A program made the position numbers and the translations under genes. Shown in pieces: positions 11,070-48,091 of a stretch of 64,000 nucleotides of DNA. This DNA is from Myxococcales bacterium (lineage in GTDB: Bacteria; Myxococcota; Polyangia; Nannocystales; Nannocystaceae), in the NCBI GenBank assembly GCA_016793465.1, contig JAEUJW010000066.1, positions 151,548 through 215,547 of the forward strand, in the 5' to 3' direction. The notes under the pieces are model-generated. The model was not told where the DNA came from, searched no databases, and saw only the letters and a list, made by a program, of their open reading frames with translations. Every line of letters begins with the position of its first letter. The first letter of the stretch is position 1.

Positions 11070-11212
11070 GACCGCGGTTTATATCACGGCACCCCGCCGG
11101 TCTCGGCCCTCCTTGCAGATGCACCCGCGAGCATCCGTAATAAGCCCGCGCTGCGCGCTCGCGAACATGGGGCCCCACGTCCGCGGTTGAATCGGTGCAC
11201 GGGCCTGGGGCA

Positions 11213-11241
11213 TGCTCCCCGCTCGTCCTCCATGGGGAGCA
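11213..11241 (+). promoter_or_regulatory. hairpin hiding the ribosome binding site of the RT operon's first gene
   Basis: TGCTCCCC (11213-11220) is the exact complement of GGGGAGCA (11234-11241), with a 13-nt loop. The 3' arm contains the GGGGAG Shine-Dalgarno of the gene starting at 11246, so folding would block translation of the operon's first gene. The 174-nt gap 11070-11245 holds nothing else convincing apart from a TGGGGCCCCA palindrome. Confidence 0.5.
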
Positions 11242-11245
11242 AGCG

Positions 11246-14200
11246 ATGGGCCTTGAACTCAGCCTCGATGACATCCGCCGCGCCTGGGACAGCCGGGATC
11301 CCGACCTGGCCAGCCTGATCGTCGGCGTGGCCGCGGCCCCGGATCCGCGCCCGGCGCAGCCGCCCCGCGAGGGCGCACTCAGCTACGCCGGCTTCACCGC
11401 CCAGCTGGGCAACTACAAGTACAAGCGCGACGCCCCGCAGGCCCGCGCCCGCTACCGCATCGACACCATGCGCGCGCTCGAGGCCCCGAACGCCGAGGTG
11501 CCGCTCCCGCCGCGCCTGCAGCTGCACTCGGTGCTGCTCGACCTGTGGCGTAAAGACGGCGCCTACGAGCGCGCCGCCCTGCTCGAGGTGATCCGCAAGA
11601 TCCCGCTGTGCTGGGGCCCGTGGCGCGGCCTCAAGCAAATTTTTAAAGAGGCCGAGGCCCGCGGCGACAACGAGGTGCTCGGCGCCCTCGCGGCCCGCTT
11701 CGACGCCGCCTACGCCACCAAGGCCGGCAACTATAAAGAGATCTCGCGGCGCACCATGGGCTACCTCGTGCGCCGCGCCTGGCGTTACCTCCGGCGCATC
11801 GGCCAGAGCCTGCCGCCCGCCTACGTCGACGCCGCCATCGACTTCCTGCGCGCCTACGCCGACGACACCTCGTTCGAGCGCACCTGGGTCTTCAATCACA
11901 TCCTCCACCACGAGACCAAGAAGTACACGCGCCGCAACTTCCGGGTCGTGCGCAGCAAGGACGGCGCGCTGACCGAGCGGGCCTTCGGCGAGCTGTGGCG
12001 CCGCACCCCGCGGCCGGTGCTCGGCCTGCTCGAGCGCGCCAGCTCGGAGCAGGTCCGCACCTTCGCCGTGAAGGCCCTGAAGACCGACTTCCGCGCCAGC
12101 CTGCGCGAGGTCGAGGCCCCGTGGGTCGCGCGCCTGATCGCCGTCGACTCCGCGACCGTCGACGACTTCGTGGTCTGGCTGCTGCAGAACGTCCCGAAGT
12201 TCGAACAGGGCCGCTTCCGCGAGCTCGGCCTGCACGTGCCGGTGCTGCGCCTGCTCGACTCGAAGGGCGGCGAGGCCGTCAAGTACGCCGCGGCCTACGC
12301 CCGCACGCACGCCCGCGACCTCGAGCTCGACCGCCTGCTGCGCCTGGCCAACAGCCGCTCCGACGAGGTGCGCAAGCTGGCCTTCGACCTGCTCGGCGAC
12401 CGCGACCCCCGCAAGGACGTCGGCCTCGACGCCTGGGGTCAGCTGCTCGGCACCCAGTACGCCCACGACCTCGCCGCCAGCGCCCTGCGAAAGCACTTCA
12501 GCGCCCGCGAGCTCACCCCCGAGTGGTTCAAGGAGCGCCTGCTCGGCGACCGCAAGGTTTTTGATTTTGCCAGCGACCTCCTCACCAAGGTGCACACCCA
12601 CAAGTCGCTCGGCGCCGCGTTCTTCCGCGACCTGCTCGACGACCCGCGGATCACCACACAGGCCACCAACTTCGCCCTCGAGGCCCTGACCCGCTTCCAG
12701 GGCGAGGACTTCGGCCGCGACTTCCTGGCCCGCATGATCCTCCACCCCCACGCCCGCGAGACCATTCTTAAATGGATCGCCGAGGAGCGGATCAAGGCCG
12801 AGGACCTCGGCGCCCCATTCTGGCGCGCCGTCGCCTTCCAGGCCACCTGGGACAGCGACCCATTTATTAAGGAGCTGATCCACTCCGGCAGGCCGTGGGC
12901 CCGCGACCTGAAGTTCGACGAGAACCTCGCCAAGTCGGCGCTCGGCTTCCTCAGCGACGTGCGCCGCTTCTCGCCCGGCGACCTCGGCTTCGACTGGCTC
13001 ATGCAGCTCGCGCTGCGCAGCGAGCCGCACTACCACGAGTTCGCCCTCGAATACATGACCAAGGCCCTGCTCCCGGCGGATTTCGCGCCGAAGCAGGCCA
13101 TACAGCAGAAGGCCGCTCCGGCCGCCGCCAAGAAGATCGACCTCGGCGGCAAAAGCTTCCTGTTCACCGGCAAGCTCGCGACCATGGTGCGCGACGAGGC
13201 CGAGGCCAAGGTCACCGGCGCGGGCGGCAAGAACGCCAGCAGCGTGACCGCCAAGCTCGACTACCTCGTGATCGGCGACGACGGCTCGCCGCTGTACGGC
13301 CAGGGCCGCAAGGGCAGCAAGCAGGTCGCCGCCGAGAAGCTGGTCGAGAAGGGCGCCGGCATCAAGGTCATCAGCGAGACCGCCTTCTTGCAGATGCTGG
13401 CCGGCGAGCAGCGCGAGTTCACGGCCGACGCCGTGGGCGCCGGCTGCGACCGCCTGTGGGAGATGGCCACCGGCCCCGGCCCCGCCGACGCGCCGCAGGC
13501 GAACTTCGCCCGCCACTACATCCGTCGCCACCACCCCGACATCAGCCTCGCGCTCACCGACCGCCCGGTCGACCCCGGCGCGGAGATCCCCGCCAGCTAC
13601 CTGACGTGGGCCAGAGTGAGACCGCTGCTCGTCGACGCCCGCAGCACCGTGCGTCAGTTCGGCCTCGAGCTGGCCCGCTGGGAGCTCGCGCGCTGGGCCC
13701 CGCCGATCGCCGACATCGTCGAGGTCACCGAGGCGCCGTACCCCGAGGTCCGCGAGTTCTTCGCCAGGGGTCTGCTCGCCGACGAGTCGGTCGAGCACAA
13801 GCGCTACCGCATCGACCCCGGCACGCTGACCGCCACCGCCGTGTACGGCTTCTGCGAGAGCCTCGTGCCCGAGACGCGCGCGCTCGGCATGCAGCTGATC
13901 CACCGCTACCCCAAGCTGGCGATCCCCGAGGAGCTGTTCCGCCTGAGCGAGAGCCCCGATCGTCAGGTGACTGCCTTCGTGGTGAGAACGATCTGGTCGC
14001 TGTACCGGGACCGCGGCATCACTCTCACGTGGAAGCCGACCCCGCGCCCCGAGCCCAAGCAGACCGGCAAGGCCAAGCCGAGCGCCAGGCCCGACACCAT
14101 CATTAAAGGTCCGCCCGCCGAGGGCTCCGGCCCGCCCGCGCGGCCAGGCAAGCTGCCGGCCAGCCACGAGGCCCTGCAGGCGTTCATGCGCCGCATGCTG

Positions 14201-14503
14201 TTCTCGATCCCGCCGGCCAAGCTGCCGAGCGAGGCCAAGACCTCGGACGCCGACGCCAACAAGCAGGACGACGAGCCGAAGAAGCGCCGGGCCAGGCCGT
14301 TGCCCGCGCGCAAGGCCAAGCTCTCGCTGATCGAGGCGATGCGCGACCTCGCCGTGCGCGAGCGGGCCTTCGCCGACCTGGCCGCCCCGCTGCTCCGCGA
14401 GTTCATGGGCTCGCGCGGCGCCAGCGAGCGCGCCGCCTGCATGGTCGCGCTGGTCCGCATCGGCGCGGCCCACCCCGACCTCAAAGTTCTGGAGGCTGCC
14501 TGA
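11246..14503 (+). CDS. alpha-solenoid (HEAT-like) protein with embedded BRCT domain, 1085 aa
   Basis: Residues about 1-610 are almost wholly helical with HEAT-like spacing (for example LLRLANSRSDEVRKLAFDLL). Residues about 628-712 form a BRCT domain: KSFLFTGKLATMVRDEAEAK, the Gly-Gly turn AGGKNASS, KLDYLVIGDD, and ISETAFLQML. A second helical region, a basic Pro-rich linker (about 930-1025) and a short helical C-terminus follow. BRCT domains bind phosphopeptides or DNA ends, and solenoids act as scaffolds. The start at 11246 has a clear GGGGAG; an upstream in-frame ATG at 11195 is less likely. It overlaps the next gene by 1 nt (TGATG), so it heads the operon ending in the reverse transcriptase. 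Biological role unknown. Confidence 0.85.
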   Translation: MGLELSLDDIRRAWDSRDPDLASLIVGVAAAPDPRPAQPPREGALSYAGFTAQLGNYKYKRDAPQARARYRIDTMRALEAPNAEVPLPPRLQLHSVLLDLWRKDGAYERAALLEVIRKIPLCWGPWRGLKQIFKEAEARGDNEVLGALAARFDAAYATKAGNYKEISRRTMGYLVRRAWRYLRRIGQSLPPAYVDAAIDFLRAYADDTSFERTWVFNHILHHETKKYTRRNFRVVRSKDGALTERAFGELWRRTPRPVLGLLERASSEQVRTFAVKALKTDFRASLREVEAPWVARLIAVDSATVDDFVVWLLQNVPKFEQGRFRELGLHVPVLRLLDSKGGEAVKYAAAYARTHARDLELDRLLRLANSRSDEVRKLAFDLLGDRDPRKDVGLDAWGQLLGTQYAHDLAASALRKHFSARELTPEWFKERLLGDRKVFDFASDLLTKVHTHKSLGAAFFRDLLDDPRITTQATNFALEALTRFQGEDFGRDFLARMILHPHARETILKWIAEERIKAEDLGAPFWRAVAFQATWDSDPFIKELIHSGRPWARDLKFDENLAKSALGFLSDVRRFSPGDLGFDWLMQLALRSEPHYHEFALEYMTKALLPADFAPKQAIQQKAAPAAAKKIDLGGKSFLFTGKLATMVRDEAEAKVTGAGGKNASSVTAKLDYLVIGDDGSPLYGQGRKGSKQVAAEKLVEKGAGIKVISETAFLQMLAGEQREFTADAVGAGCDRLWEMATGPGPADAPQANFARHYIRRHHPDISLALTDRPVDPGAEIPASYLTWARVRPLLVDARSTVRQFGLELARWELARWAPPIADIVEVTEAPYPEVREFFARGLLADESVEHKRYRIDPGTLTATAVYGFCESLVPETRALGMQLIHRYPKLAIPEELFRLSESPDRQVTAFVVRTIWSLYRDRGITLTWKPTPRPEPKQTGKAKPSARPDTIIKGPPAEGSGPPARPGKLPASHEALQAFMRRMLFSIPPAKLPSEAKTSDADANKQDDEPKKRRARPLPARKAKLSLIEAMRDLAVRERAFADLAAPLLREFMGSRGASERAACMVALVRIGAAHPDLKVLEAA

Positions 14504-17500
14504 TGTCGACCGCGACGACGAGTGACAAGTTCACGACCGACAAGTACACGCAGATCCGCGGGGAGCTGCGCGCGCTGCTCGGGCACGGCCCGCAGCTGCT
14601 GGTCGTCACCGTCCACCCCGAGGGCCAGCCCACCGCCCTCTACCGCCTCAACGTCGACTCCGGCGAGCTCACCAGCGGGCCGCTCGGCGGCGGCGGCACC
14701 CACCTGCTCGCCGACGACGGCCACGTCTACGTCGCCGGCACCGACGGCCACATCTACGTCGCCCCCATTGACAAGGGCGCCCCCAAGTCGCTCGGCCCCA
14801 AGCTCGACCCGGCCCCGGTCGCCCTCGCGTTCGCCGGCAAGGACCGCCTCGCCGCGGTGTGCGGCAAGGAGCTGGTGATCGTCGGGCGCAGCAACGGCAA
14901 GGAGCTCCAGCGCCTCACGCTCGGCGAGTTCGGCGTGAGCGTGGCCTCCGACCCGAGCGGCGTGTGGCTGGTCGTCGGCGGCGACCGCGGCACGCTCAGC
15001 GTGTTCGACTGCGAGGACAAGGAGAAGTTCTTCGCCGCCGAGTCCAAGAAGATCCACGACGGGGCGATCAACGCCCTCATGTTCGAGACCGAGGAGCTGC
15101 GCGTCACCTCCGTCGGCGCCGACAACAAGGTCCTGGGCACCCACGTCCGCGGCGAGCTCGAGCCCGAGGACCGCAGCGGCAAGAACGGCCACAGCAGCGG
15201 CACCACGGCGGTGATCCCCGGCGTCGCCGACAAGTTCTACACCGGCGGCCTCGACGCAAACATCAAAATCTGGACCCGCGGCGCCGGCCAGCGCAAACCC
15301 TCGAGCCAGAAGGAGGGCCTCGCCAAGGTCGTCGCCCTCGCGCTCGTCGACTTCAAAGGTCGTCCACACCTCGTCGCCGCCTGCAAGGACAACACCCTGC
15401 GCCTGTTCCCGGTCGACGCCGGCGGCAAGGTCGGCGATCGGATCCAGCTGTTCCACGGCGCCCAGACCTGGGCCGAGTACGAGCTGAAGCGCCGCGACCC
15501 CAAGCTGCGCGAGGTCTCGCTGCGCGCCCTCGCCGGCTGGAACGACGCCACCTCGCTCGAGCTGCTGGCCGGCCGCGTCACCGAGGACGAGGACCACGGC
15601 TTGAAGGTCCTCGCCACCGAGCTGCTCGGCGCGACCAACAACCCCCGCGCGATCAAACTCCTCGAGCCTTTAATTAAGGCCAACGAGGAGGCGGTGCGCC
15701 TGGCGGCCCTCGCCGCCCTGCGCAAGCTCGAGGGCGAGGACTCGCTGCGCATCCTCGACCTCGCGCTCGCCGCCCAGCAGCGCGACGTCGGCACCGTGGC
15801 GATCGAGGCCCTCGCGCGCCTGGCCAAGAAGGACGACCTCGCCTACGCCCGCCTGACATCCGCGCTCGGCCAGAACCCGCGCGAGGTCCGGCTCGCCGCG
15901 CTCGTCGCCCTCGAGTCGCTGCACCCCGACAAGTCGCCCGAGCCCGAGCTGATCGCCCTGCGCGCCAAGCCGGCCGATATCCGCAAGACGGCGCTCGTGC
16001 GCTTCTACCAGCGCGACATGCTGGCGCTGCCCGACGTGCAGTCGGCGCTGCGCCGCTTCTCCGCCGACGCCGACGCCGGCGTGCGCCAGACCGCCTTCCT
16101 CATCTCCTTGCTCACCACGCCGAAGCTGGCCGCTGCGCTGCGCTTCCACAGCAAGCAGATCCACCGCCAGCTCCACGACATCGAGACGGCCCCCGACCCG
16201 ACCGCAGAGGTCAAAGCCGCCGAGAAGCCGAAGACCGGCAAGCCGGACAAGGCCAAGGCCCCGAGCGACGACGACCTGCCGAAGGCCAAGAAGGTCGACC
16301 CCTCCGAGGTCAGCGAGGCCGACAAGCGCCCGCTGCTCGAGGCCATGGCGAGCCGCGCCCTCGACACCTGCCTCAGCGGCGCCACCGGTCTCGCGTCCCT
16401 GCAGGACCCCCGCGCCCTCGGCACGCTGCTGCAGCTGTCGCGCGAGCAGACCGCGAGCGTGCGCGTCGAGACCTGCAAGGCCCTCGCCGAGCTCGCCGAC
16501 CCGCGCGGCGCGGCCCGCCTGCGCCTCATGCTGCGCGACGGCGACGCCAGCGTGCGCGACGCCGCCTTCACCGCGCTCACCCGCCTCGAAGACAGGGCCC
16601 CGCTCGCGGTCGCCGAGGCCGGCCTGCTCGCCGAGCACGAGGACGTACGCCGCCGCGGCCTCGACCTTTTAATTAAGCAGCTGAAGAAGGGCCACGAACC
16701 CGCGGCCGTGACGCTGCTCGAGCGCGCCCTCGGCGACGCCGGCAAGTCGGTCCGCACCGAGGCATTCAAGAGTGCCCTCGGCCTCGAGATCGCCGGCGGC
16801 GGTCCGGCGAGCCTGCGCTTCGTTCTTAAAAGCCTGCACGCCGACGTGCGGCGCGAGGTGCTGACCGAAGTGATCGGCCAGATCTCGCAGTCGTGGGCCT
16901 GGCCGCTGCTCATCGAGCTGCTCGGCGACCCCGACCCGGGCGTGCGCAAGGACGCCTTCGAGTTCGCCCTGAAGCGCACCAAGGGCATCGGCCTCGAGCC
17001 GCTGAGCGCCGCGCTCGCCGGCAAGTACGCCGACCTGCGCACCGAGGCCGTCAAGGTGCTCGCCAAGCGCAAGGCCCCCGGCACCCAGGAGCTGCTCAAC
17101 AAGGCCGTCGACGACGACGACGAGAACGTGCGCCAGCTGGCCGTCGACGCCCTGCTCGTCGGCGACTCCGAGGACGCCCTGACCGCGGCGATGGCGAGCA
17201 AGCACCCCGACGTGGTCGTGCGCGCCGCCTGCGCCCGCGCCGTGCTCGGCGACCCGGCCGCCCGCGCCCCGCTGCAGGCGATGATCGCCGAGCCCGAGCC
17301 CGAGGTCGCCCAGCTGCGCACCAAGTGGCTCGACCGCGCGGTGCGTGCGCTCGGCGGCCTCGCCGAGCTCGGCGACCCGGCCGCGGCCGCGGCCGTGCTC
17401 CCGCTGCTGCAGCACAAGGACGCGAAGATCCGCCAGACCGCCGCCCACGCCCTGGCGTGGATGGCCCGCCCCGGCAACGCCAACGCGATCTTCGCCCTCA

Positions 17501-20500
17501 AGGTCGCGCTGCAGCACAGCGACGCGGCCGTGCAGCTCGAGGCCGCCCTCGGCCTCGCCTTCATCGGCGAGCCCGCCGGCTCCTCGCTGCTGTTCACCGC
17601 CGGCAAGAACGCCCCGTCGCCCGACCTCGGCCTCCACGCCGCCCTGGCCCTCGGCCTCGACGACGTGTTCATGGCCTTCCTCGACCACGCCAACGACAAG
17701 GTCCGCGACAAGGCCCTGCTCATCATCCTCATGCGCGAGATGGTCGAGGGCGACGGCGTGCCCGACCGCTGCCTCGCCGCCCTGTCGTCGGCCCACCCGC
17801 GCGTGCGCCTCGTCGCCGCCCAGGCCCTCGAGCACTTCGGCGACGACGCGGCCTTCTCGAAGTTCGTCGCCGACCTCACCAACGACCGCGGCGAGGGCAA
17901 GGCGAAGTTCACCATCCCGCCCGCCACCTCCCGCGCGCTCGCCGAGGTCATCACGTTCGGCGACGCCAGGGGCAACCCGCAGTTGAAGGTCCGCGCGGCG
18001 CGCCTGCTCGACGCCCTCCGCGAGGACAAGCAGGAGTCGTTCGACCGCCAGTGGGGCGTGTTCTCCCGCCGCTACGCCGGCGCCCTCGCCGACGCCCACG
18101 CGCTCGCCGACAAGCGCAGCCCGCAGAAGCCCGCCTACGCCCCCGACGAGCTGCGTCAGGTCGTGTTCGGCGCCTACGCGGCCCTCTCGCGCCTCCCCGG
18201 CGGCAACACCGAGATGCGCATCCGCCAGACCGCGCTCTCGCGGCTGCTCGCCGGCGTCACCCCGCCGAAGGACGGCAAGCCCAAGAAGGGCGAGCAGGCC
18301 CCGCTCGCCGCGGTCCAGAGCGTGCTCGTGCTGGCCCTCGGCGACCCGCACCAGACGGTGCGCAAGCAAGCGTTCGACGGCCTGAAGGCCACCGGCATGG
18401 ACGCCACGGCCCTCGCCGCCGAGGCCCTCGCGACCGGCCAGCGCGACACCGGCGCCCTCGGCCTCGCCCTGCTCGCCCAGCAAGGCAAGGGCGCCGCCGG
18501 CTTAAAAGTCCTCGAGGACGTGCTCGCGGTCCGCGACGACGGCCTCGAGCAGGAGGCCGCCAAGCTGCTCGCCGAGCTGAAGGGCGGCAAGCCGCAGGAG
18601 GGCGAGAGCGACGCGGCGATCGCCGCGCGCCGCGACGCCTGGGTGTACGTGCACAAGCTCAGCCTCGGCGCCCGCTCCGAGGCCCTGCGCCAGGCGGCCG
18701 TCGGCGGCCTCGCCGGCTACTACGAGGAGAGCGGCAAGGGCCCGGCCGCCGAGGCCCTGCGCGCCGCGCTCGGCTCGAAGTACCGCGCCCAGCGCTTCGC
18801 CGCCGCCCAGCAGCTCGCGACCAAGAAGGACATCGCCGCCTTCGACGTGCTCGTCGAGATGCTGCGCTCCGACCAGTCGGGCGAGCAGACCGAGGCGATC
18901 CGCGCGCTCCAGCGACTCGGCGATCCCAGGGCCGCCGCGGCCTTCATGGACCGCATCGACCGCGACCCCGCCGGCACCGCCCGCGTCGACGAATTATTAA
19001 AGACCGCGGGCACGTTCCGCCAGGTCAGCGACGCCACCCGCCTGCTCGGCTACCTCGACAACCCGAAGCGCCGCGCCGCCGCCTTCGCCGCGCTCATGAC
19101 CATCTCCGGCCACGATCAGCGCATCGAGGACCCGGAGGACAACGGCGCCCTCTCGACCGTCCCTAGCACCAGCAGCGACGCCGACGACGACGACGACGAC
19201 GATTACAGCGACGACGACGACAGCGACGACGACGACAGCGACGCGCCCAGCTTCCAGGCCGACTGGGAGAAGAAGCAGCACCCGCGCCACGACGACGTGC
19301 TCGTGCAGATCGCCGAGGCCGCGCGCCGCCTGTCCGACGACCGCCAGCTGCAGGCGATCGCCCTGCCGATGCGCTGGGCCCGCGGCAAGGAGCTGGACGC
19401 CGCGCTCGCGCCGCTCATCACCTATCCCAAGCCGGACATCGCCCGCAAGGCGACCGAGGCGATCGGCTGGCGTCTACGTAAACGCGGCGGCCCGCCCGAC
19501 CCGCTGTCCGCCGCGCTCAAGTCGAGCGACCCGGAGATCTCCTTCCTCGCCGCCGAGGGCCTCGCGCTCGCCGGCCGGGGCGACGGCATCAGCGTCCTGC
19601 TGACCGCCATCGACCTCCTGCCCGACCTGAACATGCGCCGCCGGGCCGTGCGCGCCCTCGGCGAGCTCGGCGACGCCCGGGCGCTCGACACCTTCCTCCG
19701 CCTCGTCAACGAGGACGGCCACGCCCTGCAGGACGAGGCCGCCGAGGCGCTCGGCCACATGGGCAAGGCCGCCGAGGCCACGCCCGGCCAGTCCGACAAG
19801 ATCTTCAACATCCTGTCGCGCCTGTCCAACGGGACAGGTACGGCGGCCCAGCGCGCGCTCGTCGGCCTGCGCTGGTTCGGCACCCACGAGGCCTGGAAGC
19901 TGATCCGCGGGCGCGCCAAGGACGAGAACGGCACCACCCGCGGCACCGTCGCCCGCCTGCTCGAGTACGACAAGGACCAGGCCACCCTCGGCCTCATCGC
20001 CGAGCGCCTGCGCGAGGAGTCGTGGTCGGCCACGGCGCAAGCGCTGGCCCACAGCCTGCGCAAGCTGTCGGGCGCCGACTCGCTCGAGCCCGACTACGTG
20101 TTCCTGCAGGCCAACCAGGCCAGCCTCGAGAAGGACACGCTCGAGCGCCTGCGCCAGCGCGGCGACCCGGCCCGCCTGATCGCCCTGCTGCCGACCATTA
20201 AACGCGCCGAGGCTTACCTCGCGCCGGTCGTGCAGATCCTCCTGACCCGCACGCCGCTGCCGATCGACGCCGCCGCGCCGCACCTCGGCTCGGTCCACCC
20301 GCGCGTCGCCGCGGTCGCCGCGGAGATCATCGGGCGCGCCGGTCCGTCCGCCGCCAAGGCCCACGGCAAGCGCCTCGCCGAGGTCACGAAGGCCGCGCGC
20401 GAGGCCTGGCTCGCCGAGCACGCCCGCCTGTGCGACGGCAAGACCCACCGCCTCGACGAGGTCACCCCGCCGTACAAGGCCGCGCTGTGGGCCTCGTCCC

Positions 20501-21111
20501 GCCTCGACGTCGCCGGCGACGAACTCGTCGCCGCCGTCACGCTCGCCGACGGCTCGGCCAAGCCGCTGCCCGCCCGCCCGCTGCGCCGCCAGGCCGCCCT
20601 CGGCCTCGCCGACGGCGCGGGCGGCAAGGCCGGCGCCGAGGCCCTGCGGGCTGTCCTTCGGGACAGCAACGACGCCGACCTGCGCAGCATCGCCGCCGCC
20701 GGCCTGGCCGCCCGCAGCGCCGACAACGCCAGCCTGGTCCCGCTCGTGCTCGACGACGCCGCCAGCCTCGCGCGCCTGGTCCCGAAGACCGGCACCGCCG
20801 GCCTGCGCCCCGCGGCCGGCGACGTGCACCGCCAGGGCGTGGTGCTCGCGCACCTCGTCGCCGCCGGCGACGGGGCCGCGCTGATCGCCGCGCTGAAGGA
20901 CAAGAAGACCGGCGAGACCGCCCGCCTCGCGCTCGTCGAGGCCCTCGGCAAGCTGCCGAGCGACGAGGCGAGGACCGCCCTGCGCACCCTCGGGTCGACC
21001 GAGTCCGAGGACGAAGAGCTGCGCAAGGCCGCCTGGCGGGCCCTGCGTCGCAACAAGCGGCTCTCCATCAGTAAACCCGCGCGGCACGGCCGCTGGGAGG
21101 TGCAACCGTGA
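14503..21111 (+). CDS. giant beta-propeller plus HEAT-repeat protein, 2202 aa
   Basis: The N-terminal 300 residues are WD40/PQQ-like propeller blades (VYVAGTDGHIYVA, VWLVVGGDRGTLSVFD, FYTGGLDANIKIWT, VAACKDNTLRLFPVD). From about 310 to the end the protein is a continuous HEAT/PBS-lyase-like solenoid (LGDPDPGVRKDAFEFALKR, LGELGDARALDTFLRL), with dozens of about 30-residue units. It is interrupted by a Lys-rich linker near 570-600 and a very acidic Asp/Ser tract near 1555-1585. No catalytic motif or export signal is visible. It overlaps the previous gene by 1 nt and the next by 4 nt (GTGA), so all are translated from one message. A scaffold or sensor role is inferred. The gene holds two CTGTC palindromes and two TTAATTAA words. 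Confidence 0.88.
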   Translation: MSTATTSDKFTTDKYTQIRGELRALLGHGPQLLVVTVHPEGQPTALYRLNVDSGELTSGPLGGGGTHLLADDGHVYVAGTDGHIYVAPIDKGAPKSLGPKLDPAPVALAFAGKDRLAAVCGKELVIVGRSNGKELQRLTLGEFGVSVASDPSGVWLVVGGDRGTLSVFDCEDKEKFFAAESKKIHDGAINALMFETEELRVTSVGADNKVLGTHVRGELEPEDRSGKNGHSSGTTAVIPGVADKFYTGGLDANIKIWTRGAGQRKPSSQKEGLAKVVALALVDFKGRPHLVAACKDNTLRLFPVDAGGKVGDRIQLFHGAQTWAEYELKRRDPKLREVSLRALAGWNDATSLELLAGRVTEDEDHGLKVLATELLGATNNPRAIKLLEPLIKANEEAVRLAALAALRKLEGEDSLRILDLALAAQQRDVGTVAIEALARLAKKDDLAYARLTSALGQNPREVRLAALVALESLHPDKSPEPELIALRAKPADIRKTALVRFYQRDMLALPDVQSALRRFSADADAGVRQTAFLISLLTTPKLAAALRFHSKQIHRQLHDIETAPDPTAEVKAAEKPKTGKPDKAKAPSDDDLPKAKKVDPSEVSEADKRPLLEAMASRALDTCLSGATGLASLQDPRALGTLLQLSREQTASVRVETCKALAELADPRGAARLRLMLRDGDASVRDAAFTALTRLEDRAPLAVAEAGLLAEHEDVRRRGLDLLIKQLKKGHEPAAVTLLERALGDAGKSVRTEAFKSALGLEIAGGGPASLRFVLKSLHADVRREVLTEVIGQISQSWAWPLLIELLGDPDPGVRKDAFEFALKRTKGIGLEPLSAALAGKYADLRTEAVKVLAKRKAPGTQELLNKAVDDDDENVRQLAVDALLVGDSEDALTAAMASKHPDVVVRAACARAVLGDPAARAPLQAMIAEPEPEVAQLRTKWLDRAVRALGGLAELGDPAAAAAVLPLLQHKDAKIRQTAAHALAWMARPGNANAIFALKVALQHSDAAVQLEAALGLAFIGEPAGSSLLFTAGKNAPSPDLGLHAALALGLDDVFMAFLDHANDKVRDKALLIILMREMVEGDGVPDRCLAALSSAHPRVRLVAAQALEHFGDDAAFSKFVADLTNDRGEGKAKFTIPPATSRALAEVITFGDARGNPQLKVRAARLLDALREDKQESFDRQWGVFSRRYAGALADAHALADKRSPQKPAYAPDELRQVVFGAYAALSRLPGGNTEMRIRQTALSRLLAGVTPPKDGKPKKGEQAPLAAVQSVLVLALGDPHQTVRKQAFDGLKATGMDATALAAEALATGQRDTGALGLALLAQQGKGAAGLKVLEDVLAVRDDGLEQEAAKLLAELKGGKPQEGESDAAIAARRDAWVYVHKLSLGARSEALRQAAVGGLAGYYEESGKGPAAEALRAALGSKYRAQRFAAAQQLATKKDIAAFDVLVEMLRSDQSGEQTEAIRALQRLGDPRAAAAFMDRIDRDPAGTARVDELLKTAGTFRQVSDATRLLGYLDNPKRRAAAFAALMTISGHDQRIEDPEDNGALSTVPSTSSDADDDDDDDYSDDDDSDDDDSDAPSFQADWEKKQHPRHDDVLVQIAEAARRLSDDRQLQAIALPMRWARGKELDAALAPLITYPKPDIARKATEAIGWRLRKRGGPPDPLSAALKSSDPEISFLAAEGLALAGRGDGISVLLTAIDLLPDLNMRRRAVRALGELGDARALDTFLRLVNEDGHALQDEAAEALGHMGKAAEATPGQSDKIFNILSRLSNGTGTAAQRALVGLRWFGTHEAWKLIRGRAKDENGTTRGTVARLLEYDKDQATLGLIAERLREESWSATAQALAHSLRKLSGADSLEPDYVFLQANQASLEKDTLERLRQRGDPARLIALLPTIKRAEAYLAPVVQILLTRTPLPIDAAAPHLGSVHPRVAAVAAEIIGRAGPSAAKAHGKRLAEVTKAAREAWLAEHARLCDGKTHRLDEVTPPYKAALWASSRLDVAGDELVAAVTLADGSAKPLPARPLRRQAALGLADGAGGKAGAEALRAVLRDSNDADLRSIAAAGLAARSADNASLVPLVLDDAASLARLVPKTGTAGLRPAAGDVHRQGVVLAHLVAAGDGAALIAALKDKKTGETARLALVEALGKLPSDEARTALRTLGSTESEDEELRKAAWRALRRNKRLSISKPARHGRWEVQP
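19822..19837. repeat. dispersed palindrome CTGTC-N6-GACAG
   Basis: CTGTCCAACGGGACAG lies in frame inside the giant HEAT-repeat gene, encoding part of a loop (LSNGTGT) between helices. Confidence 0.6.
20651..20666. repeat. dispersed palindrome CTGTC-N6-GACAG
   Basis: CTGTCCTTCGGGACAG lies in frame inside the giant HEAT-repeat gene, encoding AVLRDSN at a HEAT-unit turn. Confidence 0.6.
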
Positions 21112-23012
21112 GCAGCGAAGAGACCGACAAGCCCGAAGCCGGGGCCGAGCAGGACTCGCAGAAGCCGGAGGACCAGCTCGCCGACCCGCGCACCCCGGTC
21201 ACCCTGACCTACGGCGGCGCCAGCCAGCTCGTCAGCGGCGACGCCGACGCCCGCCTCGCCCTGTTCGCCAACACCCGTCGCCCGGACGTCCACGCCGACG
21301 CGAAGATCAAGGACCCGCTGAAGCTCCGCGAGGCCCTCTCGGCCCTCTACGAGGTCGTCAGCTCGGACTTCCGCTACGTCCCGCGCGACAAGACCGCGTA
21401 CCTCGCGTACATGCGCCTGCGCAAGTCGATGGCCGGACAGAGCGCCGTGCAGGCCCAGCAGGCCTACTTCGAGTGGCTCGCGCGCAATGACCCGACGGCC
21501 TGGCTGGTGCTCGACCCCATCGTCACCGTCCACCCCGACCGCCTGATCTTCGAGGTGTTCTCGAAGGACGAAGGCGCCTACGCCCAGCTCGGCGTCGACT
21601 GGTCGGCGCTCGACGTCGCCGGCACCCCGCGCTACGGCACGACCAACATCGACTACAGCAAGGGCCTGTTCGACGGCGTGCAGCGCATGCGCAGCTACCG
21701 TCCGACCCGCCTGACCATCGGTCGAGAGGCAGTCTCGCTCGCGACCGGCGACGCCAAGCCCACCGTCGAGAAGACCATCCAGATCCCCGACAGCTGGCTG
21801 CGCGGCTTCCTGCAGGTCCAGAGCGCCGCGACCCTGCCGACCACGGTCGTCACGATCGCCGCGATCGACCTCTACAACACGCTCCGCCAGCTGCGCATGC
21901 ACGCCGACAAGAAGGGCGGCGGCCGCGGCGTGCGCATCGAGCTCGTGCCCGGCGAGCCGCCGCGCCTCGTGCTCGAGCCGTGGGAGCTCGTGCTCACCTC
22001 GAGCGCCGGCCCGTACAAGGGCCGCGCCCCCGCGCTGATCCGCATCTGGGGCCGCCGTCGCCTCAGCCTGCTGCGCCGCCTGCTGCCGTTCGTCGACACC
22101 GTCGACATCCACCTGCTCGGCTCGGGCCTTCCGAGCTTCTACGTGCTGCGCGCCGGCCCCGTCACCCTCACGCTCGGCCTCTCGGGCTTCACCAGCGCCA
22201 ACTGGTCGCAGTCGGTCGGCTTCGACCAGCTGCTCCCGCGCGACCGCGACGACGCCGTCAAGTCGACCCTCGCCGCCGTGCTCGAGCAGCTCAACAACGT
22301 GTGGGTCGCCTCCGCCGAGTCGCTCGTCAAGGCCACCAAGAAGCCGGCCAGCGAGGTCTACACCGCGCTGCAGATCGCCTGCCAGAACGGCCGCGTCATG
22401 TACGACCTGGCCCGCGACGTCTACCGCCTGCGCCCGCTCACCGAGGCCCCGCTCGACCTCTCGCGCCTGCAGTACCGCAGCGTGCGCGAGCGCATCGCCC
22501 ATGACCTCGTGCAGCGCGGCGCGGTCAAGATCGCCAGCGAGAACCGCATCTACGGCACCGGCCTCGAGATCACCGGCAAGGTCGTCGTCGAGTCCGACCG
22601 CCGCGAGTACCGCCCGCAGCTCGTGCTCGACGACGACGGCCGCGTCAAGTCGGCCGAGTGCACCTGCACGTTCTTCCGCAAGCACAGGCTGAAGGAGGGC
22701 CCGTGCGCCCACCTCATCGCCCTGCGCGTGGCCCAGGCCCAGGAGGAGGAGCGCCGCCGCCAGGCCCGCGGCAAGGCCCGCACGAGCATCACCATCGAGA
22801 CCCGCACCTACGCCCGCCGCCACGGCGAGGCCGAGGAGGTGTGCCAGATCTCCCTCGACCGCCAGCGCATCAAGCTGCGCTGGGGCCCGCGCGGCCACAA
22901 CCTCCGCGTGCAGAGCCTGGTCTTCAACACGGTCGCCGAAGCGCGCGCGGCCTACTTCGAACGCGTCGACGACCTCGAGGCGCGGGGCTACCTGGACGGA
23001 ACCGCGGGGTAA
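21108..23012 (+). CDS. SWIM zinc-finger protein, 634 aa
   Basis: The SWIM motif is explicit: C518-x-C520, twelve residues, C533-x-H535 (ECTCTFFRKHRLKEGPCAHL). It is followed by a helix and a basic stretch (EEERRRQARGKAR). Upstream regions are mixed alpha/beta with no motif I recognise: an acidic, disordered first 40 residues, a middle section (KTIQIPDSWLRGFLQVQSAA) and strand-rich parts (RGVRIELVPGEPPRLVLEPW). SWIM fingers bind DNA or proteins. The GTG start overlaps the preceding stop by 4 nt, and the RT gene begins 3 nt after its stop, so translation is coupled. It probably bridges the RT and the solenoid proteins; this is inference. Confidence 0.88.
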   Translation: MSSEETDKPEAGAEQDSQKPEDQLADPRTPVTLTYGGASQLVSGDADARLALFANTRRPDVHADAKIKDPLKLREALSALYEVVSSDFRYVPRDKTAYLAYMRLRKSMAGQSAVQAQQAYFEWLARNDPTAWLVLDPIVTVHPDRLIFEVFSKDEGAYAQLGVDWSALDVAGTPRYGTTNIDYSKGLFDGVQRMRSYRPTRLTIGREAVSLATGDAKPTVEKTIQIPDSWLRGFLQVQSAATLPTTVVTIAAIDLYNTLRQLRMHADKKGGGRGVRIELVPGEPPRLVLEPWELVLTSSAGPYKGRAPALIRIWGRRRLSLLRRLLPFVDTVDIHLLGSGLPSFYVLRAGPVTLTLGLSGFTSANWSQSVGFDQLLPRDRDDAVKSTLAAVLEQLNNVWVASAESLVKATKKPASEVYTALQIACQNGRVMYDLARDVYRLRPLTEAPLDLSRLQYRSVRERIAHDLVQRGAVKIASENRIYGTGLEITGKVVVESDRREYRPQLVLDDDGRVKSAECTCTFFRKHRLKEGPCAHLIALRVAQAQEEERRRQARGKARTSITIETRTYARRHGEAEEVCQISLDRQRIKLRWGPRGHNLRVQSLVFNTVAEARAAYFERVDDLEARGYLDGTAG

Positions 23013-23015
23013 ACC

Positions 23016-24323
23016 ATGGCGACCACTTTCCGCATCGACTACACCCGGCTCCTCGACCTCTGGCGGAGCATCGAGCAGGCCGGCGGCCGCGACAAGTACA
23101 TCCAGGCCCAGCTGAAGGAGAAGGGCTACCTCATCGAGCGCAAGCCGACCGACAACATGTCGAAGGCCGAGCTCGACCGCTACAAGAAGACGCTGAAGGA
23201 GGAGGCCGCCGAGAAGCGCCGCCTCGCCAAGGAGGCCTGGCAGGCCTACAAGGCCGCCCACCTGGTCCACCTCGGCGAGGGCGTGTTCTGGAACGACGAC
23301 CTCGACCACGACAAGTGGGACCTCCCCGACGGCAAGGAGCGCCAGGCCGAGAACGAGCTGCCGAAGCTCGACAAGCCCAAGCAGCTGGCCGAGGCCCTCG
23401 GCGTGTCGATCGCCGAGCTGCGCGTGCTCGCCTACCACCGCGACGCCGCCACGAAATTAAACTACTACCGCTTCACGATCCCCAAGCGCGACGGCTCGCG
23501 CCGCCCGATCTGGGCCCCGCACCGCCGCTTGAAGGCGGCGCAGCGCTGGATCCTCCGCGAGGTGGTCGAGCGCCTGCCGGTCCACGGCGCGGCCCACGGG
23601 TTCCTCCACGGGCGATCGATCGCCTCCAACGCGGCCGTGCACACCGACTCGCAGATCGTCTTGAAGGTCGACCTGAAGGACTTCTTCCCGACCGTCACGC
23701 TGCCGCGGGTCAAGGGCGTGTTCCGCAAGGCCGGCTACCAGGAGCAGATCGCGACCATCCTCGCCCTGCTGTGCACCGAGGCCCCGCGCCAGGTCACCGA
23801 GGTCGAGGGCAAGCAGTACTTCCTCGCCCTCGGCCCGCGCTGCCTCCCGCAGGGCGCGCCCACCAGCCCCGGCCTGACCAACACCCTGTGCATGCGCATG
23901 GACCGACGCCTCCAGGGCGCCGCCATCAAGCTCGGCTGGCGCTACACCCGCTACGCCGACGACCTCACCTTCAGCCTCCCCAACGGCCACAAAGGCAAGC
24001 CGGGCCTCGGCAAGCTGCTCGGAACGATCTCCGCGATCGCCGTCGCCGAGGGTTTTGTCGTGCACCCCGACAAGACCCGCGTGTCGCGCTCCGGCGGCCG
24101 CCAGCGCGTCACCGGCCTCGTCGTCAACGGCAAGACCGGCCCCCGCGTCCCGCGAGACATCAAGCGCCAGGTCCGCGCCGCCCTGCACAACCTCACCAGG
24201 GGCAAGCCCCTGCGCGAGGGCGAGACGCTCAGCAAGCTCGCCGGCATGGTCGCCTACATCAGCATGACCGACCGCAAGCTCGGCCAGAAGCTGCGCGCCC
24301 AGCTGGCCCAGCTCGGCGGCTGA
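23016..24323 (+). CDS. retron-clade reverse transcriptase, 435 aa
   Basis: An RNA-directed DNA polymerase. The RT fold spans about 145-400, with the first catalytic Asp in VDLKDFFPTV (D219) and the catalytic pair in YADD (D315, D316). PQGAPTSPGLTN (motif 4) is also present. Both retron-specific marks are visible: NAxxH (N205-H209, NAAVH) and VTG (365-367). RT motif 1/2 (IPKRDGSRRPIWAP, HGAAHGFLHGRS) closely resembles myxobacterial retron RTs from memory. The N-terminal about 140 residues are a helical, charged extension. It is the last gene of the operon, 3 nt behind the SWIM gene, leaving no space for the usual upstream msr-msd. A hairpin follows at 24343. Confidence 0.95.
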   Translation: MATTFRIDYTRLLDLWRSIEQAGGRDKYIQAQLKEKGYLIERKPTDNMSKAELDRYKKTLKEEAAEKRRLAKEAWQAYKAAHLVHLGEGVFWNDDLDHDKWDLPDGKERQAENELPKLDKPKQLAEALGVSIAELRVLAYHRDAATKLNYYRFTIPKRDGSRRPIWAPHRRLKAAQRWILREVVERLPVHGAAHGFLHGRSIASNAAVHTDSQIVLKVDLKDFFPTVTLPRVKGVFRKAGYQEQIATILALLCTEAPRQVTEVEGKQYFLALGPRCLPQGAPTSPGLTNTLCMRMDRRLQGAAIKLGWRYTRYADDLTFSLPNGHKGKPGLGKLLGTISAIAVAEGFVVHPDKTRVSRSGGRQRVTGLVVNGKTGPRVPRDIKRQVRAALHNLTRGKPLREGETLSKLAGMVAYISMTDRKLGQKLRAQLAQLGG

Positions 24324-24374: not shown

Positions 24375-27300
24375 TCAGCCCGCCTGTTCTTTAAGCCAGG
24401 CCGCGATCTCCTCGGCCTCGCGCGCGAACCCGGGGCCCCGGGCCCGCAGCGTCGCCAGCGCCTGCTCGGCCAGCCCGCGCTCACCCGCCGCCCTCGCCAG
24501 CGAGAAGCGGGCCGCGGCCAGGTCCGGGTGGTCCTCGTCGGCCACCGCGGCGTACAGCCCCACCGCGCGGCGGAGCAGCGGCGCCGCGTCGTCCGCCCGC
24601 CCCTGGGCCAGCACCGCGTCGCCGAGGTGCCGCAGCCCCTGGGCGATCGCCAGGCTCTCCGGCGCCAGCACGGCCTCGCGGATGGCCAGCGCCCGCCGCA
24701 GCTCGGCCTCGGCCTCGGCCGCGCGCCCGAGCCGCAGCGCCGCGACGCCGCTCGACTCGATCGCGCTGGCCATCGCCGGCGCCTCGCCCGACTCGCCGCG
24801 CCTGTAGATCTCGCGGGCGCGCGCGAAGTGCTCGAGCGCCTGCTCCGCGCGCCCGGCCACCAGCAGCGCCGCGCCGTGGCGCCACTCGGCATAACCCGTC
24901 TCGACGTGGTCGCCACCGAGGTGCTCCCGACGCCGCGTCAGCGCCTGCTCCGCGCGCGCCGACAGCTCGTCGACATCGCCTCGTCGGGACGCGAGGTCCG
25001 CGAGCCCGAGCAGCGCCCGCACGAAGCCCTCTCCGGACTCGTCGCCGTGCTTGGCCGACAGCTCGAGGGCCCGCTGGTAGCTCGAGCTCATGAGCTCGTC
25101 GTCGCGGACGACCGCCGCGACGTCCCCGATCGCCGTGTGCATGGTCGCGAGGATCGGCGCGTCGGCCCCCTCCGCCGCGCTCGTGCGCGACGCGACCTCC
25201 TGCAAGGTCGTCAGCGCCTCGCGGAGCCGGCCCTGCATCAACAGGGCCTGCCCGACGTTGAACTGCATCTGCAACGTCATCGGATGCTCCGGACCGAGCG
25301 CCGCGCGCGTCCGCGACGCGGCGTCGGTGAGCGCGAGGATCGCCTCGGCGGGGTTCTCGGACAGCAGCTCGACCACCCCGCGGTTGCCCAGGCTGAACGC
25401 GACCTCCAGCTCGCTCGCCCCGTGGGTCCGCTTGCTCGCCAGCGCCGCGGCCAGGGCCTCGCGCGCCTCCACGAAGCGACCGGCGAGCACGTACGCCGCG
25501 CCGAGGTTGTTGAGGAACTCGCCCTCGATCTGCGGATGAGCCGCCGTCCGCTCGACCAGCGAACGCACCAGGCGCAGCTCGCCCAGCGCCGCCTGCGGGC
25601 CCAGCGTGCCGGCCTGCACGAACATCCGCTTGCTCGCGGCCGTCGCCGCGACCTCCGCGTGCCCCGCCGACAGCCCGGTCCACAGCGCCTCGCTCAGGCT
25701 CTGCTCCGCCGCCGGATACTGCCCCGACTGCATGCGCACGCTGCCCTGACGCAGCAACGCCTCGGCCAGCAGCGGCTTGTAGCCGAGCGCCTCCGCGTTC
25801 GCCACGACCTCGCCGACCCGCGTCGATGCGTCGTCGTAGCGCCCGGCGTCCTCGAGGGACTTGGCGCGAGCCAGGCTCGCCCGCTCGTCGGCCACACGCG
25901 CGCGCACGGCGGGGTCCTCCGGCGGCGGGACGCTCTGCAGGAGCGCCTCGCTGTCGCCGCAGCTCGCCAGCGGCGCGAGGGCGTCGACCGCGAGGGCGGC
26001 CTTTTCGGCGGCGCCGGCGTCCGCGGCGGAGAACACCTCGACGAGCGCCGCGAAGCCCTCGCGTCGCTGATCGAGGCAGGCCATCCGCAGGTCGAACAGC
26101 TGATCGCTCTGCTTGGCCGAGCGATGGGTCTCGCACGCCTCGGTGCGCATCGCCGCCCACTCGGCCGCATACGCGTCGAGCCGCGGCGCGATCCGTCCCC
26201 ACGTGTCCGCGGCGTAGGACACCCCGGTCGCCAGGATCGCCGCACGGACGGCTTCGCCGCGGCTCGCGTCCCAGACCGCAGCGATCTCCTCGCTCGCGCC
26301 CTCACAGGTCGCCACCTCGCCGGTGAACATCGACGCCGCGCCGAAGCTGGCCGCGCCGATGAACCCGGCGAAGCCCGTCGCGGCCAGCCAGCGCCGGCGC
26401 TGCGCCTCGGGGTCGCGGCCGAGCTGGACCAGCAGCTCGGTCATCGACGAGAAGCGCCTGCCCGGGTCGACCGCGAGCCCGCGCAGCAGCACCTTGCGCA
26501 GCCAGCCCGGCACCTTGGTGCTCGCCGGCGGCTCCTTGATCTTGCCGGCGTTGACGTCGGCGACGAGCGACGCCAGCGTCGTGCAGTCGAACGGGTGGAG
26601 CCCGTAGAGCCCCTCGTAGAGGCTGATGCAGAAGCTGAACTGGTCGCTCTGCGCGCTCGCTGGGCGCCCGAGGTGCTGCTCCGGGGCCATGTACGCCGGC
26701 GTGCCCATGATGGCGCCGGTGCGGGTCAGCGGCGCGTCGAGCAGGCTGTTGCTGTACGACCCGCTCGGCGGCGTGACCGACAGCTCCTCGCTGCCCGCGT
26801 GCTCGGCCGAGCGGGCCAGACCGAAGTCGAGGACCTTGACCGCGCCGTCGTCGCCGACGAGCACGTTGTGCGGCTTGAAGTCGCGGTGAATGATCCCCGC
26901 GTGGTGCGCCGCCTCGAGCCCGCGGCCCGCCTTGACGAACACCTCGAGGACCTCGCGCCACGCGCGTCTGCTCGGCCCGCGCAGCCACGCGTCGAGGCTC
27001 TTGCCCCGCACGAACTCCATGGCGATGTACACCGAGCCGTCCTCGAACGTGTCGGCGGCGTGGACCGTGACGATGTTGGGATGCGACAGCCGGGCCATCG
27101 CCTGCGCCTCGCGGAGCAGGCGCGTCTTGCCCACTTCGTCCTGGCGCGTCGCCTCGCCGCGTAGCACCTTGACCGCCACCTTGCGGTCGAGGTGGTCGTC
27201 GTAGGCGGTGTAGACGATGCCCATGCCGCCCTCTCCCAGGCGGTCCAGCACCGTGAAGCGGCCGATCTTCACCGGCCGCGCCTTCGTGCGAAACAGTTTG

Positions 27301-27734
27301 GCCTTGACGAGGTCCTTGACGCGGCGGTCCTCGTCCACGGCGGGCAGCGGCAGCGCCGGTCGACCCTCGCCGTCACTGAGCCGGGTCGGAGCGACGAGAG
27401 GTGAAGCGGCCTCGTCGTCTCCGTCCGGCGCAGGCGTCACGGTCTTCGCCAGCGCGGCGGGAACAGGGGTGTGCGTGCGCTCGAGCGCCGGCGGCAGCGG
27501 CGTATGGGTCCGCTCGAGCGCGGGTGGCAGCGGTGGTTGGGTCCTTTCGAGGTCAGGGGGGAGCGGGGTCTGCGTCTTGTCGAGCGCGGGCGGCAGCGGG
27601 GCCTGGGTCTCCTCCAGCGAGGGTTGCGGGGTCTGCGTCCGGGCGAGCGCCAGGGGGTTCGGCGGCGCGGGCGTGCGTCCGTCCAGCGACGCCGCGGTCT
27701 GGGCGAGACCGGGGTCGGGACGTTCGACACTCAT
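24375..27734 (-). CDS. Ser/Thr protein kinase with TPR tail, 1119 aa
   Basis: The first 135 residues are disordered, with five 11-residue Thr-Pro repeats (LPPALERTHTP type, residues 47-101). The kinase domain (about 158-430) has an intact P-loop (GEGGMG), VAIKs-type lysine (KVAVKVL), HRDFKPHN, DFG and MAPEQ, so it should be active. A single transmembrane helix follows (TGFAGFIGAASFGAASMF), then about 600 residues of helical TPR-like repeats. It is probably an inner-membrane receptor-like kinase sensing through its tail. The start at ATG 27734 has a GGAGAG ribosome binding site. It lies 103 nt downstream of the ECF sigma gene on the same strand, so they are likely an operon. Convergent with the RT operon. 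Confidence 0.93.
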   Translation of the reverse strand: MSVERPDPGLAQTAASLDGRTPAPPNPLALARTQTPQPSLEETQAPLPPALDKTQTPLPPDLERTQPPLPPALERTHTPLPPALERTHTPVPAALAKTVTPAPDGDDEAASPLVAPTRLSDGEGRPALPLPAVDEDRRVKDLVKAKLFRTKARPVKIGRFTVLDRLGEGGMGIVYTAYDDHLDRKVAVKVLRGEATRQDEVGKTRLLREAQAMARLSHPNIVTVHAADTFEDGSVYIAMEFVRGKSLDAWLRGPSRRAWREVLEVFVKAGRGLEAAHHAGIIHRDFKPHNVLVGDDGAVKVLDFGLARSAEHAGSEELSVTPPSGSYSNSLLDAPLTRTGAIMGTPAYMAPEQHLGRPASAQSDQFSFCISLYEGLYGLHPFDCTTLASLVADVNAGKIKEPPASTKVPGWLRKVLLRGLAVDPGRRFSSMTELLVQLGRDPEAQRRRWLAATGFAGFIGAASFGAASMFTGEVATCEGASEEIAAVWDASRGEAVRAAILATGVSYAADTWGRIAPRLDAYAAEWAAMRTEACETHRSAKQSDQLFDLRMACLDQRREGFAALVEVFSAADAGAAEKAALAVDALAPLASCGDSEALLQSVPPPEDPAVRARVADERASLARAKSLEDAGRYDDASTRVGEVVANAEALGYKPLLAEALLRQGSVRMQSGQYPAAEQSLSEALWTGLSAGHAEVAATAASKRMFVQAGTLGPQAALGELRLVRSLVERTAAHPQIEGEFLNNLGAAYVLAGRFVEAREALAAALASKRTHGASELEVAFSLGNRGVVELLSENPAEAILALTDAASRTRAALGPEHPMTLQMQFNVGQALLMQGRLREALTTLQEVASRTSAAEGADAPILATMHTAIGDVAAVVRDDELMSSSYQRALELSAKHGDESGEGFVRALLGLADLASRRGDVDELSARAEQALTRRREHLGGDHVETGYAEWRHGAALLVAGRAEQALEHFARAREIYRRGESGEAPAMASAIESSGVAALRLGRAAEAEAELRRALAIREAVLAPESLAIAQGLRHLGDAVLAQGRADDAAPLLRRAVGLYAAVADEDHPDLAAARFSLARAAGERGLAEQALATLRARGPGFAREAEEIAAWLKEQAG

Positions 27735-27837
27735 GGGCGCTCTCCGAAGGACGCGAAGCATGGTGGGAGACGAGTGACCGTCCTCCCCCGAACAATTGCG
27801 ACGGCCCGAGAGATCGTCACCAGCCCCCGTTCGCCGC

Positions 27838-28455
27838 CTACTTGCGCGGCTTCAGCTCGTCCCTCAGGTGACGCGCCCAGCTCTCGAGATCGGACACCGT
27901 GCTGTGCAGCAGCGAGGGCGAGGCGGCGAGCTCGGCGAGCTGCGACTCGAGCAGCTGCTTGGCCCGGCGGATGCGCGTCCGCGCGGTGCCCTCGGGGATC
28001 TCGAGCACGTCGGCGATGTCCTTCGCCGTCATGTTCTCCCAGTAGTACAGCTCGAGGATCATCTGCGACTCGATGGGGATGCGCTGCAGCGCCTGCAGCA
28101 GCAGGCGGGTCTCCTGGGCCTGCGCCATCAAGGTCGTCGGCGTCGGGCCGAGGTCTGCGGCCGACTTCTCGGCGATGTCGAAGCGCTCCCCGTTGCGCCG
28201 CTGCCCGCGGTAGTGCTCGAGCAGGATGTGCCGCGCCACCCCGAACAGGTAGGCCTGAAAGGTCGTGCCCTCGCGCATCCGCGACTGCGTCTCGACGCAC
28301 ACGAGGAAGGTGCGCTGGATCAGGTCCGGCGCGTGCTCGCCCGCCTTGCTGCGGAAGAAGCGGGCGAGGCTGTCGTAATAGCGCTCGAAGAGCACCTCGC
28401 CCGCGTCCTCGTCGCCCGTACGCCAGGCGGCCAGGAGCTGCTGATCATCGGTCAC
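27838..28455 (-). CDS. ECF-type RNA polymerase sigma factor, 205 aa
   Basis: Sigma-70 region 2 is seen as GEVLFERYYDSLARFF and HAPDLIQRTFLVCVE, and region 4 as IPIESQMILELYYWENMTAKDIADVLEIPEGTARTRIRRAKQLL, which is a full HTH. Length is normal for the ECF group. GTG 28455 is chosen because a TACAAT box lies 8 nt upstream (complement of 28464-28469), implying a leaderless mRNA. There is no anti-sigma gene beside it. Instead a kinase gene follows, matching the known pairing of some ECF groups with Ser/Thr kinases; phospho-control of the sigma factor is an inference. Confidence 0.94.
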   Translation of the reverse strand: MTDDQQLLAAWRTGDEDAGEVLFERYYDSLARFFRSKAGEHAPDLIQRTFLVCVETQSRMREGTTFQAYLFGVARHILLEHYRGQRRNGERFDIAEKSAADLGPTPTTLMAQAQETRLLLQALQRIPIESQMILELYYWENMTAKDIADVLEIPEGTARTRIRRAKQLLESQLAELAASPSLLHSTVSDLESWARHLRDELKPRK

Positions 28456-28724
28456 AGGCCCGGATTGTATAACAACGCCGACCGATTCCGAGGTCCCGTC
28501 GGCTCGGCCCAGAATCGCCCGTATCGGCCATTGGCGAGGCCTACCACAGGTATCGACCAAGCTTATGAACGACGCCTGTACAGTGACGTCACCGAGCCTG
28601 GCCTGCGGCGGGCGTCACACACGGACCAGACCCACGAAGCGTACGAACGACTTTTTTCATTCAGGGGAAATTGTTCGTCTCCCAACCATCACATGACTGC
28701 TGAAGCGGCACGGTGGCACTCTCT
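28456..28724. promoter_or_regulatory. divergent promoter region between sigma factor and ADYC lipoprotein genes
   Basis: This 269-bp gap is AT-richer than its surroundings. It holds the TACAAT box of the sigma gene and a perfect 10-bp palindrome GTGACGTCAC (28583-28592). Two similar decamers, TATGAACGAC (28564-28573) and TACGAACGAC (28642-28651), are possible binding sites. A six-T run lies near 28652. No gene is seen inside. Confidence 0.45.
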
Positions 28725-29801: not shown

Positions 29802-29823
29802 GCGCCTCACGATCAACCCTCAC

Positions 29824-29866: not shown

Positions 29867-29873
29867 CGACTCG

Positions 29874-33095
<3,222 letters not shown>

Positions 33096-35202: not shown

Positions 35203-36846
<1,644 letters not shown>

Positions 36847-48086: not shown

Positions 48087-48091
48087 CCACC

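Follow-up and report, generated by a model that had tools for sequence, protein, structure and literature searches.

We analysed a 64,000-nucleotide (nt) window of a Myxococcales genome (Nannocystaceae; contig JAEUJW010000066.1) that contains a four-gene operon ending in a retron-clade reverse transcriptase (RT). All four proteins match the type XIII retron models of PADLOC-DB (2023), HEAT-ARM_XIII twice, SWIM_XIII and RT_XIII, and its sequence places the operon in a distinct subtype of the type XIII retrons, here named B. Its features are as follows:

11070..11245, no strand: leader between the divergent upstream gene and gene 1, from the Nannocystis alignment and reading; no significant match to the RNA models
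11246..14503, + strand: gene 1, HEAT solenoid with BRCT domain (HEAT-ARM_XIII); PADLOC PDLC02921, 1207 bits; start conserved in Nannocystis
13148..13387, + strand: BRCT domain of gene 1; Pfam PF00533, E 2.7e-5, passing the cut-off
14503..21111, + strand: gene 2, WD40-like and HEAT giant of 2202 amino acids (aa) (HEAT-ARM_XIII); PADLOC PDLC02919, 2160 bits, and Pfam
21108..23012, + strand: gene 3, SWIM_XIII protein; PADLOC PDLC02972, 639 bits
21294..22214, + strand: predicted PCNA-like sliding-clamp region of gene 3, residues 63-369; predicted model
22626..22724, + strand: SWIM zinc finger of gene 3; Pfam PF04434, E 0.0027, just below the cut-off; conserved Cys/His
23016..24323, + strand: gene 4, retron reverse transcriptase RT_XIII; PADLOC PDLC02956, 537 bits; YADD, NAxxH and VTG motifs

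Gene content and retron type

The first open reading frame begins at 11195, and its start codon, ATG 11246, is conserved in an alignment with Nannocystis. The genes follow one another with a 1-nt overlap, a 4-nt overlap and a 3-nt gap, in agreement with the original prediction, and from this spacing we infer a single transcript. Third-position GC is 0.95-0.98 in all four. The BRCT domain read earlier in gene 1 holds up, and its profile matches to PDB chains of DNA ligase A and RFC1 point to a resemblance to the BRCT domains of both. In the gene 2 protein, previously described as WD40/HEAT, the HEAT portion is firm (HEAT_2, E 4.5e-65) and the WD40 portion is weak (E 1.2e-4, below the WD40 cut-off). 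The CxCx12CxH residues of the SWIM motif (C518, C520, C533 and H535) are invariant or at least 90% conserved across 25 homologues. YADD, NAxxH and VTG are motifs of retron-clade RTs; together with RVT_1 (E 1.1e-20, passing the Pfam cut-off) they secure the earlier assignment of gene 4, and they are intact in the 21 rows checked of its RT subclade (those with a trans RNA, described below, plus the window). We recognised no catalytic effector domain among the operon proteins, and searching for gene 1 in phages returned nothing.

The original prediction knew of no described retron type with this set of partners, a view that the type XIII matches overturn. The numbering of this type reportedly goes back to Mestre et al. 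2020; the available text of PMC12548924 divides retrons into 13 types. Gene 1 additionally gives a partial PADLOC match to WGR_XIII (146.7 bits). The association of large partners with the RT was correctly foreseen: all four genes are present at 18 of 25 related subtype-B loci, and RT relatives mostly lacking the partners, the pattern named beforehand as telling against a system, were not what we found. The other seven loci lie on short or cut contigs, one of which (L093) has no SWIM match above 60 bits in the 2.1 kb upstream of its RT.

Six large Nannocystis genomes (G002-G007) encode two full type XIII RTs each. Alongside the subtype-B operon, each has another type XIII retron of the ordinary kind (subtype A; L026-L031) with its RNA in cis. 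In subtype A, the SWIM gene is followed by a gap of ~260-420 nt and then the RT (13 loci aligned), whereas subtype B, as in the window, is mostly gapless. Inverted repeats flank the RNA of the subtype-A gap in Nannocystis, and 19 of 40 pairs of this RNA have changed on both sides; on sequence grounds it is a usual msr-msd. The N. exedens subtype-A RT is only 44-47% identical to that of the window, and a reading frame of 1695 aa at its locus (L027) contains a WGR domain. The window operon thus has the proteins of type XIII and differs from it in lacking an msr-msd beside the RT, in having relatives with trans cassettes, in the BRCT domain of gene 1 and in the predicted clamp fold of gene 3 noted here.

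Template RNA of the subtype-B clade

RNA models, core motif, synonymous conservation and reading of the flanks revealed no msr-msd RNA in either the operon or the window. Models of the subtype-A and cassette RNAs matched nothing in the window significantly, with every E above 1, and the cassette core motif is absent from it. Synonymous-site conservation across the four genes has no outstanding peak (largest z 3.4, lowest -4.5), and the operon flanks, aligned with Nannocystis and read, contain only a promoter-like conserved block and no RNA among the matches listed. Rfam gave no match at gathering scores in the window or in seven trans loci. An msr-msd beside the RT is therefore not found in the window; adjacency is usual rather than strict, since the accessible part of PMC6868368 counts Ne160, which has no adjacent RT, as a retron. 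At L023, repeated CTGTCCTTCGGGTCAGG-like palindromic elements lie downstream of the RT, in Nannocystis intergenic DNA.

A covariance model built from the subtype-A cis RNAs alone and run on 25 genomes returned full-length matches far from the subtype-B operon; E-values of such home-made RNA models are rough. These trans cassettes are ~225 nt long, share the frame CACAAGG(A/T)AGGCT...GTGAGCCT(A/T)CC(A/G)TGTCCC and in Nannocystis are mostly paired, ~335 nt apart (a motif search supplied the second one in G007). At L084 and L085 this frame recurs in cis, between the SWIM gene and the RT, so these cis RNAs and the trans cassettes form one family. Each cassette comprises an msr hairpin, an outer stem, a long msd stem and a conserved tip. 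Twelve sequences, including two cis ones, give a structure of 59 pairs; both partners have changed in 37 of these, and pairing holds in 93.3% of cells, whereas shuffling lowers this to 72.6% and sliding to 36-49%. Two copies in G002 (L126) are 94% identical in the tip and 85% in the msr, and their stem arms are 57% and 53% identical with the stems still paired; reading by eye places a hairpin and a T-run after each copy. TAGC, a branch-G motif, stands 10-23 nt ahead of the modelled part in 28 of the 40 cassettes. In 10 of 11 cis and 16 of 29 trans cassettes, no more than 5 of 100 shuffles equal the a1/a2 repeat. No tRNA genes were present in 12 trans loci; searches of plasmids and phages with the two-cassette stretch, and of viral contigs with the core motif, returned nothing. 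A locus with three cassettes (L211:2873-3720; L133:4324-5149; L213:4725-6951) occurs in G400, G086 and G304; in the first two it is unlinked to the RT, and in the third the cassettes surround the RT.

We surveyed two genome samples. In the phylum sample (235 genomes; match defined as E 0.01 or better), 17 genomes have a cassette match. Twelve of these are among the 15 genomes of the window's RT subclade, the misses being G144, G135 and G211, where a laxer search found nothing better than E 0.07. Another three are among five further subtype-B genomes (G220 and G196 in cis, G070 unlinked), and two are among the remaining 215 (G056 at 149 bits; G023 at 39.5 bits, beside a subtype-A RT).

The class sample, partly the same, holds 289 genomes, of which 45 have a subtype-B RT, defined by a match of at least 375 bits (that of G343 is split over two contigs). 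Strong cassettes (at least 73 bits) occur in 39 of these 45 and in none of the 244 others, figures whose Fisher tests concern related, non-independent genomes, nine of which supplied training sequences for the model. Matches outside the training set include G225, G066, G221, G130 (two contigs), G341, G298, G390 and G343. Among the 244 there are eight weaker matches, seven of them beside a subtype-A RT. In 12 genomes the RT shares at least 67% identity with that of the window; 11 of these, all but G001, have strong cassettes, and none of the cassettes lies beside the RT. Five of the 11 have them in the same contig (megabases away in G003-G006, ~15 kb in G390) and six on another contig. Strong cassettes are present in 28 of the other 33 subtype-B genomes and missing from G423, G243, G168, G373 and G354; in 25 they lie within 1 kb of the RT and in three on another contig (G400, G447 and G070); cis placements include positions after the RT (G286), on both sides of it (G304) and on the opposite strand (G316).

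In an RT tree of 41 rows, the window is sister to Nannocystis (100/100), and its 24-row subclade (99/99) contains no cis case and three rows in which no RNA was found; the fewest cis/trans changes on the tree number four. Six Nannocystis genomes share synteny at the cassette locus. The tree and this synteny together bracket the window with lineages whose RNA is unlinked, and by such phylogenetic bracketing its own genome, searched here over the window, would carry trans cassettes as well. These data indicate that the RNA of the subtype-B clade takes, in the window's subclade, the form of stand-alone, sometimes tandem cassettes that in long assemblies appear megabases from the RT. A gene of 238 aa upstream of the cassette locus recurs in Nannocystis and near cassettes in G341, G298, G343 and G225. 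It was considered as a partner and not found in ten other genomes, and we claim no partner.

The N. exedens retrons offer a comparison. The available text of a 2019 review (PMC6868368) describes Nex1 (Ne160) as a retron with multiple duplicate msr and msd repeats, no RT within one kilobase and no RT assigned to it, and an RT-Nex2 (Ne144) with a long N-terminus; its references include, by title, a 1997 report of msDNA-like repeats in Nannocystis exedens and a 2002 report of a partial copy of msDNA (multicopy single-stranded DNA). N. exedens DSM 71 (G006) has two type XIII RTs that score above 500 bits, all its other matches to the same model staying at 29 bits or less. It carries a subtype-A locus with a cis RNA and a long RT, an RT-less cassette pair (L130:3923-4104 and L130:4257-4439, minus strand), and a partial msd copy of the subtype-A RNA, 87% identical over 117 nt (L218). 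Its msDNA lengths are readable as ~144 and 160 nt with end points chosen by the analyst. The L130 pair resembles Ne160 in being a repeated msr-msd without an RT within a kilobase, and it is very probably this retron. Ne144, with its long N-terminal RT and partial msd copy elsewhere, fits L027 and L218; unlike the window, it has its RNA in cis. The simplest reading is that subtype A is Ne144, the trans cassettes are Ne160 and the homologue of the window operon is its candidate RT. In the literature found on type XIII, WGR and unlinked, orphan or multiple retron RNAs, only PMC6868368, as far as its text is available, bears on an RT-less retron, and an earlier assignment of the Ne160 RT may exist.

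Copies of the msd alone, from both retron RNAs, are scattered in Nannocystis genomes (L218-L224). Those derived from trans cassettes occur elsewhere in G003 and G005, one of them identical at 88 of 90 positions. They look like inserted msDNA, which suggests that the trans RNAs are reverse transcribed.

Predicted fold of gene 3, and neighbouring genes

A predicted model of gene 3 residues 63-369 matches the PCNA/DnaN fold, with 8-14% identity in the structural matches listed. The body of the protein is thus predicted to fold like a ring-shaped clamp of DNA replication; in contrast to PCNA and DnaN, the clamp-like region is fused to further C-terminal domains. A PDB sequence search with the SWIM-protein profile returned no clamp and no match at all. 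The C-terminal part (22794-22982) is modelled as four strands and a helix and looks WGR-like by eye. A WGR domain suspected there reached Pfam E 0.061 in one of four C-terminal pieces and was not detected in the window's, and we do not claim it.

Next to the operon, positions 24375-36846 encode two large kinase-TPR proteins, a further kinase and an ECF-type sigma factor. On the + strand at 46434-53778, VWA (CoxE-like), AAA_5 (MoxR-like) and DUF5682 genes stand in a row, an arrangement that recalls MoxR-vWA conflict systems.

Alternative explanations and a possible mechanism

We consider it likely that the window operon is a type XIII subtype-B retron whose RT clade has its RNA unlinked in the window's subclade, with Ne160 as its N. 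exedens counterpart. Several observations weigh against this. The nearest relative, G001 (a 6.6-Mb metagenome-assembled genome whose RT is 88% identical), has no cassette; it also lacks the 238-aa neighbour gene, which fits an unassembled locus. Strong cassettes are missing from eight other subtype-B genomes as well (G423, G243, G168, G373, G354, G144, G135 and G211), with only two matches of ~32 bits in G354. Conversely, G056 has a cassette and no RT was found in it. The a1/a2 repeats beat shuffles in little more than half of the trans cassettes, and several genomes are fragmented, so that ‘another contig’ says less than ‘megabases away’. The clamp likeness, too, is a likeness of fold, which is not proof of a ring.

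According to the text available from PMC8867640, most characterised retrons are one msr-msd-RT transcript, and a template could be hidden in cis, overlapping the 3′ end of the SWIM gene, within the leader or downstream of the RT. Gene 3 reaches further at its C-terminus than the SWIM_XIII model, and the G286 cassettes lie just after the RT. However, the RNA models, core motif, synonymous sites and flanks of the window all speak against a hidden cis template, which we judge highly unlikely. That the cassettes instead serve the subtype-A RT, leaving the subtype-B RT without RNA, domesticated or template-free, is very hard to credit. Six Nannocystis genomes do carry both RTs and both RNA kinds, and the A and B RNAs are distantly alike, but cassettes also occur where the only type XIII RT fetched is of subtype B (G192, G197, G183, G077 and G225, all drafts), strong matches are lacking in the 244 genomes without a subtype-B RT, the same RNA family lies in cis beside subtype-B RTs, and the RT keeps NAxxH and VTG. 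The original prediction had allowed for a host-domesticated RT. Vertical inheritance has some support, in operon flanks that are alike in Nannocystis and in the syntenic RNA locus, but the RT motifs and template RNAs are kept, and the operon is therefore still a retron.

We give just as little credence to the proposal that the cassettes are inserted msDNA copies, repeats or regulatory RNAs and not templates. The absence of Rfam matches is compatible with it, such DNA can spread, as the msd-only copies demonstrate, and retrotransposition is proposed in the title of the 1997 N. exedens paper, as given in the reference list of PMC6868368. Yet the cassettes keep the msr hairpin and outer stem, mostly have TAGC and often their own a1/a2, occupy one locus in six species and covary strongly. 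An ordinary type XIII retron, with the clamp likeness a coincidence of beta-alpha-beta domains, is unlikely; the low identities and the lack of a sequence match to any clamp are what speak for it.

If the window operon is a split retron with unlinked RNA, its RT would find the distant RNAs through the conserved msr hairpin and outer stem and prime on a guanosine, yielding msDNAs that share the hairpin tip and differ in the stem. It would act in trans on one or more RNAs, and a partner could read the shared tip. RT and msDNA may be held with the two HEAT solenoids and the SWIM protein in one complex, whose contacts with DNA would run through the clamp-like body, the SWIM zinc finger and the gene 1 BRCT domain. 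If phage attacked the msDNA or the replication machinery, this might be sensed and set off a protective response. An anti-phage role would be expected from the retron family, and by analogy with other retrons the complex may be a large DNA-watching defence assembly. Whether one RT operon with a PCNA-like clamp and an RFC1/ligase-like BRCT domain serves several unlinked RNA genes to make distinct sensors or decoys we regard as an even bet.

The protein set belongs to a known type, whereas the unlinked template RNA and the clamp fold look new; these two points and the absence of a cis RNA are what the original prediction missed. If true, a split multi-template retron would explain the orphan Ne160, and the role of its clamp would be to confer processivity or to sense phage replication. 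Retron RNAs are usually sought beside the RT; should templates prove able to be unlinked and multiple, the same may account for some RTs for which no RNA is known. Genome engineering could profit from an enzyme that works on several templates at a distance. The RT behind msDNA-Ne160, for which a 1997 report gave no neighbouring RT, can now be sought by direct test, and retron defence would be tied to the machinery of replication if a partner protein does have a sliding-clamp fold.

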